From NCBI GenBank assembly GCA_948474755.1, contig CAOLHI010000394.1, forward strand, positions 1 to 64,000: a DNA stretch of 64,000 nucleotides, read 5' to 3'. The stretch's first letter is position 1, and each line of letters starts with the position of its first letter. Source of the stretch: Ctenosaura bakeri (taxonomy: Eukaryota; Chordata; Lepidosauria; Squamata; Iguanidae). The translations under genes and the position numbers were made by a program. The notes below the pieces were generated by a model. That model was not told the DNA's origin. It ran no database searches and saw only the letters and a list, made by a program, of their open reading frames with translations. Positions 6,880 to 58,567 of this stretch are shown piece after piece.

Positions 6880-6975
6880 CTCCTAGTGTATGAAGGCACA
6901 GAGACCACGAGAAGAAGAACAGGTTGCTTACCTGTAACTGTGGTTCTTCGAGTGGTCATCTGTGCCATCATACAC
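6880..6975 (+). repeat. DIRS internal complementary region (ICR)
   Basis: The left half (6880-6910) is an exact reverse complement of the element's 5' end (1142-1172). The right half (6915-6975) is an exact reverse complement of the 3' end (7157-7217). In the accepted DIRS model this region templates the joining of both ends to form a closed circle. Joining base 7215 to base 1138 gives a junction that matches the reverse complement of the ICR except for a 2-nt CT difference in a TTC-rich run. Confidence 0.93.
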
Positions 6976-7016: not shown

Positions 7017-7193
7017 TACGGCGGACGACAGAACTGAGGAGAGACCGTTGCTCGGCGGGAGGAGCATGCGCAGTACCGGCGTGGGGGAGGGGTTCCCGCC
7101 AAGCGAACAAGCTCTAGAAGTTTCCGAACGCTACCGCGCAGGCGCTAAAGCTCCTAGTGTATGATGGCACAGATGACCACTCGAAGAACCACA
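7017..7193 (-). repeat. DIRS right inverted terminal repeat
   Basis: This is the inverted partner of 1142-1306. The outermost bases beyond 7193 (to 7215) are not in the left repeat but are matched by the ICR, as in other DIRS elements whose 3' terminal repeat extends past the 5' one. Confidence 0.92.
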
Positions 7194-7215
7194 GTTACAG
7201 GTAAGCAACCTGTTC

Positions 7216-7258
7216 TTATGATCTGTAAAAAGATACATTACTTAGGCAAACCTTTTTC
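7216..7258 (+). repeat. 43-bp direct repeat, right flank of DIRS
   Basis: Perfect copy of 1095-1137. The next host bases (CTTTGAGCAG) differ from those after the left copy, where the element begins, so this is the resumption of the pre-insertion target. Confidence 0.9.
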
Positions 7259-33427: not shown

Positions 33428-34141
33428 GAAATTCTGTCCCACACCGCCTGATTAACACGGGTGGCGGGGGGGGAACGGCCTTTGCTGCCCTCCCGCAAGA
33501 CGAGATCGTTTGCGGGGGCTGATGGGAGGAGGCAGGGCCGAGCATAGTATTTAGGGCCGCCCCGCCTCTCTCTCAGCTTCTCTTCGGATCCAGGCGACCC
33601 ACCCTCCCTCCCGATGGTTTCAGTGTAAGATAGCTGGTCGCTTCAGGGCCGGGTAGGCATTTTTCCTCCCTATACGGGGTTTTTTTCGCCTAGGTCTCCA
33701 CTGTCATACATATGGTCATCCAGGCCGGCATGGGGGTCTTAAGGTTCGGCGTGTACCTATGGCACCCCTTTTTGGGTGTAGGATAAATCTTATCCTTGAG
33801 GAGGGCCCTGGGATCACCCCACTTGCTGCGCAGCGGGGGGTGGGCCTTGGGGCTCCCCTTCCAGACAAGGGCTGGCCAAAAGTCATCATGCAACTTCAGC
33901 GGTTGGCTTTGGGGTCTGGTATTTCGCTCAACGGGCTAGGGGAGATGGTCGGGAGCTGCCTTTGGCCCTAGTCCGAAGATGCTGTTGAACCCCCCCCCCT
34001 TCTCCTCAGGTCATAAAATGCAAGTTCAAGTTTAAGTTCATGTTTAAGTTCACCCCTTTATGTTAATTAGGCATATTAATAAATTGCCCTAGTTCAACCC
34101 AAGCTCTGTCTGCGATCTCGTTATTTCGTGGGTTGGGCGGC
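33428..34141 (+). mobile_element. Ngaro-like terminal copy (or solo LTR)
   Basis: From about 33731 this matches the 3' end of the element at 56375-58420 in the opposite orientation: GGTCTTAAGGTTCGGCGTG, the block GAGGGCCCTGGGATCACCCC, AAGTTCAAGTTTAAGTTCA tandem units, AATAAATTGCCC and the shared terminus GGGTTGGGCGGC. The upstream part (33428-33730) is GC-rich and is not in the other copy. It could be another terminal-repeat segment of the same Ngaro-type element. The TG/CA-like limits also allow a solo LTR. I see no target duplication. Confidence 0.65.
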
Positions 34142-35845: not shown

Positions 35846-37608
35846 GTAAAAGAAAAAAAGAAGGAGACGATAGGGTCGCTGCGCAGAGAAGATGGCGAAT
35901 TACTCACAGGGGGAAGAGAAAAGGCAGAACTACTTAACACCTTCTTTGCCTCAGTTTTTTCCCAGAAGGATACAAGCACTCAACCTGGTGGCTGGGAGCA
36001 GGGGAGGAAGCAGGGGAAATGAGACACATAATAGGTAGAGAGGTGGTACAGGAATACCTGGCCACACTGGATGAATTCAAGTCTCCAGGGCCAGACAAAT
36101 TACATCCTAGGATATTAAAAGAGCTGGCAGAGGTCATTTCAGAACCGCTTGCTATAAACTTTGAGAAATCTTGGAGGACAGGAGAAGTTCCAGCAGACTG
36201 GAAGAAGGCAAATGTTGTCCCCATCTTCAAGAAGGGAAAAAAGAGGACCCAAATAATTATCGCCCAGTCAGCCTGACATCAGTACCCGGAAAGATCCTGG
36301 AGCAGATCATTAAGCAGTCAGTTTCTAATCATTTAGAAAGCAACGCGGTAATCACGAGAAGTCAACATGGATTTCTCAAAAATAAGTCATGCCAGACTAA
36401 TCTTACCTCTTTTTTAGATAGAGTTACTAGCTTGATAGATGAAGGGAATGCTGTGGATGTAGCATATCTCGATTTCAGTAAGGCCTTTGACAAAGTTCCC
36501 CATGACATTCTTGCAACAAAGCTGGTAAAATGTGGGCTGGACAGGGCTACTGTTAGTTGGATTTGTAATTGGTTGACTGACCAAACCCATAGGGTGATCA
36601 CGAATGGCTGTTTTTCATCCTGGAGAGAAGTGACTAGTGGGGTGCCACAGGGTTCTGTCCTGGGCCCAGTGCTGTTCAATATTTTTATCAACAACTTGGA
36701 TGAAGGAATAGAGGGCATGCTCATCAAATTTGCAGATGACACCAAATTGGGAGGGGTTGCTAATACGCCAGAGGACAGGATCAAAATTCAAAATGACCTG
36801 GATAGATTGGAGAGCTGGGCCGAGGCTAACAAAATGGAATTCAACAGAGAGAAGTGCAAGGTCCTACACTTAGGTAGAAAAAATGGAATACAGAAATATA
36901 GGATGGGGGACACGTGGCTGGATAGCAGTACGTGTGAAAGGAATCTAGGAATCTTCATAGACCACAAGCTGAACATGAGTCAGCAGTGTGATGTGGCAGC
37001 CAAGAAAGCCAATGCAATTCTCAGGCTGCATCAATAGGAGTATGGTGTCTAGATCGAGGGAGGTACTGGTACCACTCTACTCTGCTTTGGTTAGACCTCA
37101 TCTTGAATACTGTGTCCAGTTCTGGGCACCCCAATTCAAGAAGGATATTGACAAGCTGGAGCAAGTCCAGAGGAGGGCGACCAAAATGGTGAGAGGCCTG
37201 GAAGCCTGCCCTATGAGGATAGACTTAGAGAGTTGGGTATGTTTAGTCTGCAGAAGAGAAGGTTAAGAGGGGACATGATAGCCATGTTTAAATATTTGAA
37301 GGGATGCCATGTAGAGGAAGGAGAGGGCTTGTTTTCTACTGCTCCAGAGACCAGGACAAGGAGCAATGGATTCAAGCTGCAGGAGATTCCACCTGAACCT
37401 CAGGAAGAACTTCCTGACAGTCAGGGCTGTCCAGCTGTGGAATGTGCTGCCTCAGAGTGTAGTGGAGTCTCCTTCCTTGGAGGTTTTTAAGCAGAGGCTT
37501 GATGGCCATCTGTTAGGAGTGCTTTGAGGGTGTTCCTGCTGGCAGGGGGTGGGACTGGATGGCCCGTGTGGTCTCTTCCAACTCTACATTTCTATGATTC
37601 TATGATTC
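35846..37608 (+). pseudogene. CR1 LINE, 5'-truncated, with RT
   Basis: A 1.76-kb CR1 copy carrying most of the RT part of ORF2. The motifs in order are [11 protein letters not shown] (about 35920), PGPDKLHPRILKEL (about 36085), ADWKKANVVPIFKKG (about 36195), the NNYRPVSLTSVPGK region (about 36255), AYLDFSKAFDKVPHD (about 36460-36505, motif A), SGVPQGSVLGP (about 36635) and the catalytic FADDTKLGG (about 36730). The C-terminal [18 protein letters not shown] (about 37090) and [12 protein letters not shown] (about 37240) follow. The 3' end is the CR1 terminus TCTATGATTCTATGATTC. It changes frame at about 36015, 36235, 37035 and 37215, so it is dead. The endonuclease domain is missing, and the minus-strand copy at 14340-16740 is a more diverged relative. 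Confidence 0.95.
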
Positions 37609-48248: not shown

Positions 48249-48846
48249 ACGATTCTTGGTTGCATCAGTAGGAATATGATGTCTAGATCGAGGGAGGTAA
48301 TGGTACCACTCTATTCTGCTTTGGTTAGACCTCATTTGGAATACTGTGTCCAGTTCTGCGCACCTCAATTCAAGAAGGATATTGACAAGCTGGAGCATGT
48401 CCAGAGGAGGGCAACCAAAATGGTGAAGGGTCTGGAAGCCATGCCCTTTGAAGAGCATCTTAGGCAGCTGGGGATGTTTAGTTTGCAGAAAAGAAAGTTA
48501 AGAGGGGACATGATAGCCATGTTGAAATATTTGAAGGGATGTCATGTTGAAGAGGGGTGGGCTTGGTTTCCGGTGCTCCAAAGACTAGGACAAGGAGCAA
48601 TGGATTCAAGCTACAGGAAAAGAGATTCCACCTGAACCTCAGGAAGAATTTCCTGGTGGTCAGAGCTGTCCAGCAGTGGAATATGCTGCCTTGGAGGGTG
48701 GTGGAGTCTCCTTTTTTGGTGGTTTTTAAGCAGAGGCTGGATGGCCATCTGTCGGGAGTGCTTTAAGTGTGTGTTCCTGCATGGGAGGAGGTTGGACTGG
48801 ATGACCCGTATGGTCTCTTTCAGTTCTGTGATTCTTTGATTCTGTG
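48249..48846 (+). pseudogene. CR1 LINE 3' end
   Basis: Encodes only the CR1 ORF2 C-terminal tail: [20 protein letters not shown] (about 48290), [19 protein letters not shown] (about 48370), [18 protein letters not shown] (about 48470). A frame change near 48555 precedes [10 protein letters not shown] and the 3' end TTCTGTGATTCTTTGATTC. It is closely related to the copy at 35846-37608. 5' truncation is normal for this LINE. Confidence 0.93.
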
Positions 48847-48984
48847 AAAGATCCTATTTCCCACTTCCAAAACTGCAGATGGCAAAATCACAAATGTGGA
48901 GGTCTGACTCTACTTAAATTGTTACAACTGACTTTATACGACTCTGTCCATTAATTCTGGAATATAGGTTGGGATATAAAGTTG
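48847..48984. mobile_element. Tigger-like MITE fragment
   Basis: CAAAATCACAAATGTGGAGGTCTGACTCTAC resembles the right end of the 45124-45501 family. The left end is lost or displaced by the insertions to its left. Confidence 0.5.
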
Positions 48985-55170: not shown

Positions 55171-56310
55171 TATTATATATGTGCTTTGGGGGAGTGTGAT
55201 TATAGTTAATGCTCCATTTACTTACCCAACAAGCCAAGCATGTGTGTAATCTGCTAGCTGAGGAGGCATGCTTTTAATGGGATTGGCTGCAATCACTGTA
55301 AGCCTTGTGCAGGATTTTTGCATACAATCATATCAATGTTATTTATATTACAGACTTGAATCAAAGGAGCCTTTCCTGTCTGTTGGGTGAGTAAGAATCT
55401 TTATTTGAGAAAAGTACTTACCAGTAGTTACTTAGTTTTCATAACAATTTAGTCAACGCTTAGAGATTTTACTACCAGGCTTGCATTCATGCAGACTTCA
55501 TCAAAATTCTGAAAATTACAGCATCCACTGGGTATGTATGAAAGGAGCACTTAGGTTGAAGATTAGTCTCAGATTATACTTATCTGTATGTAACTGGCAT
55601 CATTCCTTGCTCAATGTGTCCTATCACAAAGTGGACAGATCTCCTAGTTTATTTATTGGTTACTTGTTTGCATTTCCTGCAGCCTAAATAACATTTACAC
55701 TGGCCAAATGTTTTCTCGGATTTGAAAAGGATTCTACCCTCGTACAACTTCATTAACTTTTATTAACCATAAAGATATCTTTTGTGTCTCCTAGCTTTGT
55801 TCCCCATTCTGTGGCCTTAAAACATGAGCATGAATTTTCTTCATAATGAAAAAAGTCAATAGAGCATGAGATCACTTTCTTCTCTCTTGGTTGGTTATAT
55901 TATCGCCTTCTCTCTCTCCCTTTGTCTTCCATCTGCATCTGTTACCCAAAGCTATTTGGTGTTTGTGTTTTTCTCAGAACTGAGGAAAATTACTTTTTAA
56001 GATGACAGCTCCCAGATTCTGGGTCTTATAGTCCAAAAAAATGAACTTTTCTGAGTTCTGACTTTTCTACAAATAGTGTGTTTAACATACACATTACACA
56101 CACACACACACATACACACATCTACACACTGCTTTTCTGATCCAGCCATTTCTTTCCAGTACACAAGCAACAATGCAAACAGAAAGTCTTCAATATTTGT
56201 CCTATTTCCTGCCCCCACCTCCAATAGTATGTGTTATATTTCCTCTCTTCCAGGTGGGAGCTATACCTTTAATGTAAATTGAGAATTACAGTAGAGGTCT
56301 TCTTTCTCTG
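55171..56310. other. no recognisable gene; (CA)n
   Basis: A (CA)n tract lies at about 56095-56120. I see nothing else. Confidence 0.45.
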
Positions 56311-56374
56311 TATAAATAAGGAATGTGCACCATGTGATACTCTAGATGTTACTGGATTACAATGCCCATGATTT
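56311..56374 (+). repeat. 64-bp direct repeat, left flank of Ngaro-like element
   Basis: A perfect 64-bp match to 58421-58484, from TATAAATAAGG to CCCATGATTT. The two copies abut the element ends exactly, and the sequence after the right copy (CTCACTATTGG) is the continuing host DNA. Confidence 0.93.
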
Positions 56375-58420
56375 GCCGCCCAACCCACGAAATAACGAGA
56401 TCGCAGACAGAGCTTGGGTTGAACTAGGGCAATTTATTAATATGCCTAATTAACATAAAGGGTGAACTTAAACTTGAACTTGACCTTGAACTTGTATTTT
56501 ATGACCTGAGAAACGGGGGGGTCAACCGTATCTTCGGACTAGGGTCAAGAGGCAGCTCCCAACCATCTCCCCTAGCCCGTTGAGCGAGATACCGGGCCCC
56601 AAAGCCAACTGCTGAAGTTGCATGATGACCTTTGGCCAGCCCTTGTCTGGGAGGTGAGCCCCAAGCCCCACCCCCCGCTGCATAGCAAGTGGGGTGATCC
56701 CAGGGCCCTCCTCAAGGATAGGATTTATCCTACACCCCGAAAGGGGGTGCCATAGGTACACGCCGAACCTTAAGACCCCCCCATACCGGCCACGGATAAG
56801 GGCAAGCGTCTGCTTAGTCCTTATTCCCCCATCCCCTCAAGATCAAGTCCAGCACCCTTTGCAAATCATTTTGTAATTTTGTAAGGAATGTAGCAACCCA
56901 AGCCCCATCTCGAGGCACAGCGAAGCTCTTGGATGAACCACGCATCGTGGATGGCCTGTATACACACGGCCTTTTCCTTCAACAGACCAAGGTCATTACC
57001 ACCCCGGTGAATGACCCTTCAATAGACCAAGGTCATTACCACCCCGGTGAATGACCCTCACCTCACATCATGGATGGCCTGTATAACCAAGGCCTTTCCT
57101 TTCACCAACCAAGGTCATTACCGCCCCGGTGAATGACCGTCACATCCGAGGGAGGTCCACCGCACTCCCCGAACAACAGAGGTAGCACGCTATGCCACAG
57201 CAGTCCCCCCATTCCAAGCCAACGTATGAATGCCCGCGCACCCAGTCACAGGTTCGGGCCCATATAATCACTACGAGCCTGCTGGTCAGCCCAGAGGACG
57301 AAATTGTGGCTGCAGATCCATGCTCGCTTCCTCACCTCCACAGCCGGTCGATCTGGAAAGGAACTCAAAACGTTAAGGCAGATCGATTGGCCAGCCATAG
57401 CGCCAGAACGCCAAGGATTTCCACCCACCAGTCTTCAGGATGTCGCCAGTCTACGTGCCCATCTGTGCTGCAGTGAAGGCTGCCCCCCGCAACATGCTTG
57501 TGTGCCAGAATTGACTCCCTGTATGCCCCATCGTCGCTGGGCCTTCTCTGTGATGTTCCAGAAGCGTGAGGAGTTGTGTCCACATGACGCGAAGAGGCCC
57601 AGCATGTGCTCCCTTGCTAATGGTGAAAATTCTAAGTGCCTTCAAGAAGGACAAAAGGTTGCATCAGCGCATACCCGTGAGATCACCATAGCGCCCCCCT
57701 TGGCCTGGTCTGTCCTAGATCCCCTTATGACCGGATGGGAATCCCCCCCCAGACAGGTCCTGGAGTACCAGGGCCCTGCCTGAGCTGTCTCTCTTGGTCC
57801 GAGCAACCAATTCACCTACTCTTAGTGCCCCAAAATGTAATGAGGGCCACCGCGTGGAAGAAAAGAGCCTCATATGTTGAAGAACTTGCTATTTTCCCAC
57901 GTCACCCAACCCCTCCGGGTGCCCGGAAAATTAGGTGCCCACTATCACGGAAAGTGGTTGCTTGCCGCACCCCTCTATGGTCCTAAAGTGGCATGACGGG
58001 AGAGGCCTGCTTGCTTAAGGGCCATACGGAATTGCAAGATGCAGTCGACTGGGAGTGTCCAGCGTCCCATGACCTTTGGACCTACGGAAGCTGCTGAGCT
58101 CCCAGGTCACCTTGCTGTGACTCTTCTAGGTGCTGGGTGCGATTGACCTACCTATCATCCTGGTTACCTCACCCCGCCAAGACTCCTCAGGCCAGCGGGT
58201 GTCGGTTCTGGGAGAGGTACGGCGGCTGGAGCCAATTCCTTGAAGCGCTCCATCTGCATACGGGAAAGAGAGTTAGCCCAGGAATTATCAACGCCTTCAA
58301 CTACTTTGAAAACAATCGTAAAGCGTAGACATTGAAGCATGCACGGCCAAACGAATCTCATGGATTGTCAATCCCTTCTGACTGCAGCGCGGTTATCACC
58401 AGAATGGACGACGCCACCGG
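56375..58420 (-). mobile_element. Ngaro-like tyrosine-recombinase retroelement, 5'-truncated and degenerate
   Basis: The element reads on the minus strand. Its 5' end (58420) lies within the pol region: the frame at 58164-58361 ends an RNase H-like segment (VDNSWANSLSRMQMERFKEL) with Pro-rich sequence after it. A stretch near 57990-58040 weakly recalls a recombinase C-terminal region (ALKQAGLSRH). Then comes an SGNH-hydrolase-like domain (RKRAWICSHNF, RWLGMGG, and VIHRGGNDLG) and a 3' part of about 440 bp shared with 33731-34141. RT, RNase H, recombinase and SGNH hydrolase in that order is the plan of vertebrate Ngaro elements. Stops and frame changes abound, so it is dead. The RT active site is absent. 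The YR identification is the weakest part. Confidence 0.7.
56943..57141 (-). repeat. tandem duplication of GGND-coding segment
   Basis: Three copies of a 26-bp near-palindrome lie at 56991-57016, 57031-57056 and 57113-57138. Read on the minus strand, each encodes V-I-H-R-G-G-N-D. A larger unit (ATGGCCTGTAT, AAGGCC and the palindrome) is present twice. The repeat sits in the SGNH-like region and disrupts it. Confidence 0.85.
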
Positions 58421-58484
58421 TATAAATAAGGAATGTGCACCATGTGATACTCTAGATGTTACTGGATTACAATGCCCATGATTT
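58421..58484 (+). repeat. 64-bp direct repeat, right flank of Ngaro-like element
   Basis: Exact partner of 56311-56374. Confidence 0.93.
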
Positions 58485-58567
58485 CTCACTATTGGCTAGA
58501 ATGGCTATTACTGATAGGAGCTGCAGTGCCACAACAGCTGGAAAGCCACAGATTGCTTGTTGGGTGG

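Follow-up and report, generated by a model that had tools for sequence, protein, structure and literature searches.

Long target duplications flank some 5'-truncated copies of a Ngaro-like element in Ctenosaura bakeri

Truncated insertions of the LINE-1 type have a fixed 3' end, a variable 5' end and a target duplication. To our knowledge, Ngaro integration leaves no target duplication, and the way in which the DNA of retrotransposons with a tyrosine recombinase (YR) enters the chromosome is poorly known. The Ngaro layout, as given in the available part of PMC8547959, consists of split direct repeats in the order A1-[ORFs]-B1A2B2 and is accompanied by isolated AB units, and an SGNH hydrolase is described as an extra ORF of amphibian Ngaros in the corresponding part of PMC9210276. 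For DIRS1-like elements, integration is stated to proceed without target duplication in the available section of PMC3266345. The Type 2b Ngaros of Cafeteria burkhardae are described as 5'-truncated, by a deletion of ~2 kb over ORF1, in an account that mentions no target duplications in its available part (PMC8547959). Long duplications have been estimated for the LTRs of HERV-K (HML-2), 13-450 bp in length, one of which, 111 bp, surrounds a truncated provirus (PMC5488345, available part).

The window, that is, the whole stretch of 64,000 nucleotides analysed here, is the start of contig C394 in a genome of 1.905 Gb and 8,006 contigs. It contains a direct repeat of 65 bp, 100% identical between positions 56310-56374 and 58420-58484 (spacing 2,110), which is the longest exact direct repeat found in the window; the 65-mer is present twice and a chance origin is excluded. 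The perfect duplication reported in the earlier note is thus real, but its length is 65 bp instead of 64 bp and its coordinates were one base off. As the note also held, the enclosed element is rich in stops (24, 24 and 32 in the three frames) and 5'-truncated, since sister copies extend upstream past its 5' end. It differs from the sister copy L009 (C1928) by 15 substitutions and one gap across 2,044 bp and shares with it 80 of 80 stops (79 of 80 with L010), so the element was dead before it moved. Together with 0 differences in 65 positions between the repeats, this bears out the proposed recent movement of an already dead sequence. Only the interior and the B repeat are retained, and the window copy is a non-autonomous Ngaro-like remnant. 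The genome search gave an apparent fixed 5' end at query position 2108; this is merely the end of the query, and relatives continue upstream.

Table 1. Features of the window (window coordinates) and target duplications at the five duplicated copies
Feature	Position	Strand	Description
Target duplication, 3'-end copy	56310..56374	-	65 bp, core AAA at 56374-56372 (- strand)
Target duplication, copy at truncated 5' end	58420..58484	-	65 bp, identical
Ngaro-like element, 5'-truncated, non-autonomous	56375..58419	-	2,045 bp
B repeat	56375..56797	-	ends GGGTTGGGCGGC at 56375, the fixed 3' end
AATAAA	56433..56438	-	only one in the element, no ATTAAA; 58 nt upstream of the B end
SGNH-hydrolase coding remnant, broken	56878..57332	-	GGNDLG motif three times, internal tandem duplications
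ALRVGEL, tyrosine-recombinase R-box remnant by eye	57808..57828	-	no match in homologue search
RNase H-like remnant, by eye	58253..58397	-	GDNRAAV... / VDNSWANSLSRMQ
Single extra base at the 5' joint	58419..58419	-	matches neither the target copy nor the parent L009
Solo A-B unit, older, same family	33430..34141	+	both termini, AAT on each side, no longer duplication
Duplication, C84 (L027) copy			26 bp, exact
Duplication, C1141 copy			47 bp, 1 mismatch
Duplication, window copy			65 bp, exact
Duplication, C171 copy			309 bp, 4 mismatches
Duplication, C1067 (L034) copy			451 bp, exact

The GGNDLG triplet at 56937-57137 of the window is accompanied by internal tandem duplications of ~40 and ~80 bp, and related copies also have repeated motifs. 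The solo A-B unit, whose A and B repeats are 85% and 92% identical to those of the L024 copy, is an analogue of a solo LTR. Three other repeat pairs are present in the window: a direct pair of ~590 bp at 86% (37024-37605 and 48258-48847), an inverted pair at 96% (1138-1306 and 7019-7188), and a perfect inverted pair of 61 bp (6915-6975 and 7157-7217).

With the element as the query, 40 of 1,575 candidates were scored, yielding 86 matches. Copies were fetched with flanks at 39 loci, along with two upstream stretches and, later, short probes and further flanks. Of the 39 loci, 12 have the arrangement B1-A2-B2 at their 3' end, with B of ~422 bp and an A block of ~352 bp. The A1 repeat is found in 10 loci (including L049); its match to the A block spans ~130-170 bp, except in L023, where the whole block is matched; A1 and B1-A2-B2 are both present on C1367 (L049 and L019). 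The relatives therefore have the split direct repeats A1...B1-A2-B2 described for Ngaro, and not the inverted terminal repeats of DIRS1-like elements, as the A and B repeats are direct.

A fragment of the L028 copy matches P0001 (PF13472) with E 9e-23 and 53% identity, and P0001 in turn matches positions 57332-56878 of the window (E 2e-16), downstream of the R-box-like motif. An SGNH hydrolase after the YR is the arrangement of amphibian Ngaros. The recombinase and RNase H motifs were recognised by eye only: a relative's fragment had neither a Pfam match nor a homologue in the YR search, the Pfam scan of six fragments had no match, to reverse transcriptase, RNase H or any other family, and searches of PDB and Rfam gave none either. 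The family thus resembles Ngaro (DIRS order) in its split direct repeats, AB units and SGNH hydrolase ORF, as far as these are described in the available parts of PMC8547959 and PMC9210276. It differs from Ngaro and DIRS in the duplications of 26-451 bp at five truncated copies, given that DIRS1-like integration is stated to occur without any (PMC3266345, available section).

The 3' end of the family is fixed. The exact 22-mer of this end has 348 matches in the genome, a count that takes in internal B1|A2 junctions, and the next two bases are AA in all 348 (GGGCGGC|AA) and AA(A/T) in 346. The end GGGTTGGGCGGC is common to the window element and the solo A-B unit, as the earlier note had observed; the 5' end of the latter is not ragged, as had been claimed, and the unit runs from the A terminus to the B terminus. 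Where an A1 terminus is present, the copy begins with a core rich in A/T, and TCGTCC or a near variant comes next. Among eleven two-ended copies (L009, L013, L014, L017, L023, L024, L026, L039, L047, the solo unit of the window and the C1367 copy), none has an adjacent exact repeat longer than 5 bp; ten show at most 3 bp, and L014 shows 5 bp. A twelfth two-ended copy, with an inverted interior (C3879), was left out of this count; no repeat is apparent in the few bases of flank that were read. In L009, L023, L026 and L047 the two flanks share weak, non-adjacent matches of 12-23 bp, which were taken as chance. The absence of repeats at the two-ended copies fits the statement on DIRS1-like integration in the available section of PMC3266345, and also means that duplication is not the ordinary mode of this family. 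All eleven two-ended copies are without duplication, unlike five truncated ones, the window copy among them. The duplicated truncated copies thus descend from Ngaro-like elements but are without the usual scar.

Two further kinds of copies were seen. The C3879 copy (L105, L112) has intact A1 and B2 termini around its inverted interior. In several short units the start of A1 is fused to the interior or to B by internal deletion (L013, L024, L026, L047, L058, L063, L102, L109), and these constitute another class of defective insertion.

Ten copies constitute a broken class, defined by an intact B end, a 5' break and no A1 in the flank examined. Five of them have a target duplication that starts exactly at the 3' end, and all five 5' ends differ. 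The other five (C3580, C1756/L018, C1143/L029, C2965/L038 and C424/L044) have no duplication within the flank examined, which was 1,527 bp on the 3' side for C3580, and 617-1,626 bp on the 5' side and 1,610-2,170 bp on the 3' side for the other four. These four break where sister copies run on; in L029, a few bases past the break look element-like by eye, and the true end may be further out. The unduplicated broken copies may represent another type of event or later deletions, or their A1 may lie beyond the examined flank. A further three unduplicated copies could not be assigned clearly: the flank of L021 resembles a SINE tail by eye, and L028 and L036 break within low-complexity sequence for which each is the other's only match. 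The 39 loci thus comprise ten with A1 (nine in the locus and one via L049), two duplicated (L027, L034), four broken without duplication, the three ambiguous ones, L046 at a contig edge, and 19 without a located 5' end.

Duplications are found in 5 of 10 broken versus 0 of 11 two-ended copies (Fisher p = 0.012), in a small sample of ten broken copies from one genome. The difference persists with the three ambiguous copies included (5/13 versus 0/11, p = 0.041) and with the window copy, the starting point of the study, excluded (4/9 versus 0/11, p = 0.026). The earlier note had read the locus as 3'-primed, 5'-truncated retroposition and had proposed testing whether aligned copies share the 3' end, vary at the 5' end and carry direct repeats. 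This description suits the five duplicated copies and does not hold generally, given five broken copies without duplication and eleven two-ended copies with a fixed 5' end and none, the latter being of the kind that the note had named as a refutation.

More truncated copies were sought with three sets of probes. In the first (20 probes), 18 continued inside the element, and the other two, C150 and C291, proved to be A1-deletion units. In the second (18 short and two longer probes), C1141 led to a truncated copy and C171 proved truncated; 14 others continued inside the element, as did C201 (also L092), while C12 and C376 matched no fetched copy and C41 did so partly. In the third (14 probes), C3580 is truncated, C3879 is the two-ended copy with the inverted interior, C1725 and C6154 are A1-deletion units, nine continued, and C4625, an internal fragment without the 3' end, was dropped. 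The mirror class, with A1 intact and the 3' side truncated, was sought among 40 scored copies of the 5' interior, 38 of which also carry a downstream motif (matched by eye); the searches are not symmetric, and this comparison rules out only truncation upstream of that motif. The two copies without the motif are second copies on C6757 and C5523 and perhaps represent one locus. On each of these contigs, a copy in forward orientation lies close to an inverted 5'-interior copy without the motif, possibly from one locus assembled twice.

At the 3' joint of the duplicated copies, the positions where the element's 3' end gives AA are occupied by TG in the target copy of C1067 and by CA in that of C84, so the element contributes AA and the target the base that follows. 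The target cores are AAA in the window, C171 and C1141 copies, CAT in C84 and TGT in C1067; AAA in three of five has p = 0.0003 under the trinucleotide frequencies of the window. The 5' joints show overlaps of 0-6 nt, namely an imperfect one in C1067 (CCAACC versus CCAATC or CCAATT), CCT in C1141, A in C84, none in C171, and none plus one extra base in the window copy. The 3' end of the truncated copies coincides with the recombination junction of the complete ones. The sole AATAAA lies 58 nt upstream, so a polyadenylated RNA would be expected to stop elsewhere, and joining by a recombinase fits better than priming on such an RNA. The targets of the window copy (58482-58491) and the C171 copy (L096) have TAGTGAG|AAA in common, which may be chance among five sites.

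We tentatively read the window copy as a dead, non-autonomous Ngaro-type element that was recently inserted by one end only; its anatomy is observed directly, and from it we infer which enzyme acted, in what order the steps took place and how the site was repaired. An active relative would have made, in trans, element DNA that was incomplete but had kept its B end intact. A putative tyrosine recombinase, represented here only by a motif seen by eye, for which the homologue search had no match, would also have acted in trans, cutting the target at a short core and joining the B end only, as on the 3' side of complete insertions, with AA from the element and the next base from the target. In the absence of A1 the second half of the reaction would be impossible, and the other chromosome arm could then be end-joined to the broken 5' end with an overlap of 0-6 nt. 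An arm first extended past the site, either by copying from the sister chromatid or by a distant second nick and fill-in, would yield a direct repeat of 26-451 bp, and a trimmed arm would yield none. The chemistry would be that of tyrosine recombinases in general, and a linear cDNA would fit. This reading draws on the fixed 3' end, the differing 5' ends, the 5/10 versus 0/11 distribution of duplications, the stops that predate the move, the AAA cores at three of the five sites, the overlaps at the 5' joints and the position of the single AATAAA. Against it are the five broken copies without duplication and the deviating cores CAT and TGT. The unduplicated copies, including C3580 (L104, L111, L114), form a second class for which a repair model must also account.

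A fixed 3' end, differing 5' ends and variable duplications are also the classic signature of target-primed reverse transcription, in which the Ngaro machinery would prime cDNA at the RNA 3' end from a target nick, stop early, and use a second nick 26-451 bp off; the A's of the core could pair with the primer T's. We consider this unlikely, as it requires an RNA whose 3' end falls precisely on the recombination junction in spite of the AATAAA 58 nt upstream. Moreover, a cut by a tyrosine recombinase leaves a 3'-phosphotyrosine and no free 3'-OH as a primer, the usual LINE target duplications are far shorter than 309 or 451 bp, and half of the broken copies are unduplicated. Retroposition of Ngaro transcripts by a LINE in trans, like that of processed pseudogenes, would agree with 5' truncation and with duplications beginning with AAA in three of five copies, yet it is very unlikely: GGGCGGC-AA is followed by target sequence, with neither a LINE-type nor a poly(A) tail; two-ended copies have the identical 3' end, which lies 58 nt past AATAAA; and the duplications are too long. 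The truncated copies resemble LINE-1-type insertions in their fixed 3' end, variable 5' end and target duplication, and differ from them in that a poly(A) or short-repeat 3' tail is absent, the 3' end is a recombination junction, and the duplications reach 451 bp; 5' truncation with target duplication is present in five of the ten broken copies and absent from the other five.

The recombinase need not have acted on the target at all if linear, B-ended Ngaro DNA was end-joined at staggered double-strand breaks. Overlaps of 0-6 nt at the 5' joints, the broad range of duplication lengths, the occurrence of copies both with and without duplications, and the core TGT would all agree with such capture, but it is made rather improbable by the AAA core in three of five copies, few as five are. 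The untrimmed B end of all counted copies provides no independent evidence against it, as only B-ended copies were counted and C4625 was dropped. A pseudo-duplication through later rearrangement, or an assembly error, would be conceivable for loci known here from the assembly alone, and rearrangement is discussed as a cause of the long HERV-K duplications in the available part of PMC5488345. It is nevertheless hardly probable for five independent loci, all flush with the same 3' end and differing in their 5' ends and lengths.

The one-ended joining that we favour could have a parallel outside YR elements. HERV-K (HML-2) has LTRs and a DDE integrase, not a tyrosine recombinase, and the duplications described here were seen only in 5'-broken copies. 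By analogy, and as a link of our own, the shared range of lengths suggests that integration by one end, with subsequent repair, has such an outcome in general, the HERV-K range of 13-450 bp in the available part of PMC5488345 being strikingly similar to ours.

Our searches of the open-licence PMC literature turned up no account of Ngaro or DIRS copies flanked by duplications. Scars at five of ten broken sister copies and at none of eleven complete ones hint at a second, incomplete insertion route. For annotation, this calls for caution, because an element flanked by a target duplication may still be a YR element. With long duplications set directly against the recombination junction, the truncated copies look like insertions caught halfway, and genome sequences can then be used to test the order of events, namely which of the two ends is joined before the other and whether a linear cDNA is involved. 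More speculatively, and with a low probability in our estimate, Ngaro integration could normally begin with one-ended joining of the B terminus. The cDNA, linear and possibly single-stranded, would be attached to a single strand of the target at a core rich in A/T; only full-length cDNA would then give clean insertions free of duplication, and incomplete cDNA would give 5'-truncated copies with long duplications or none, depending on host repair. If so, these copies would be a genomic fossil record of the route by which YR retrotransposons pass from cDNA to chromosome.
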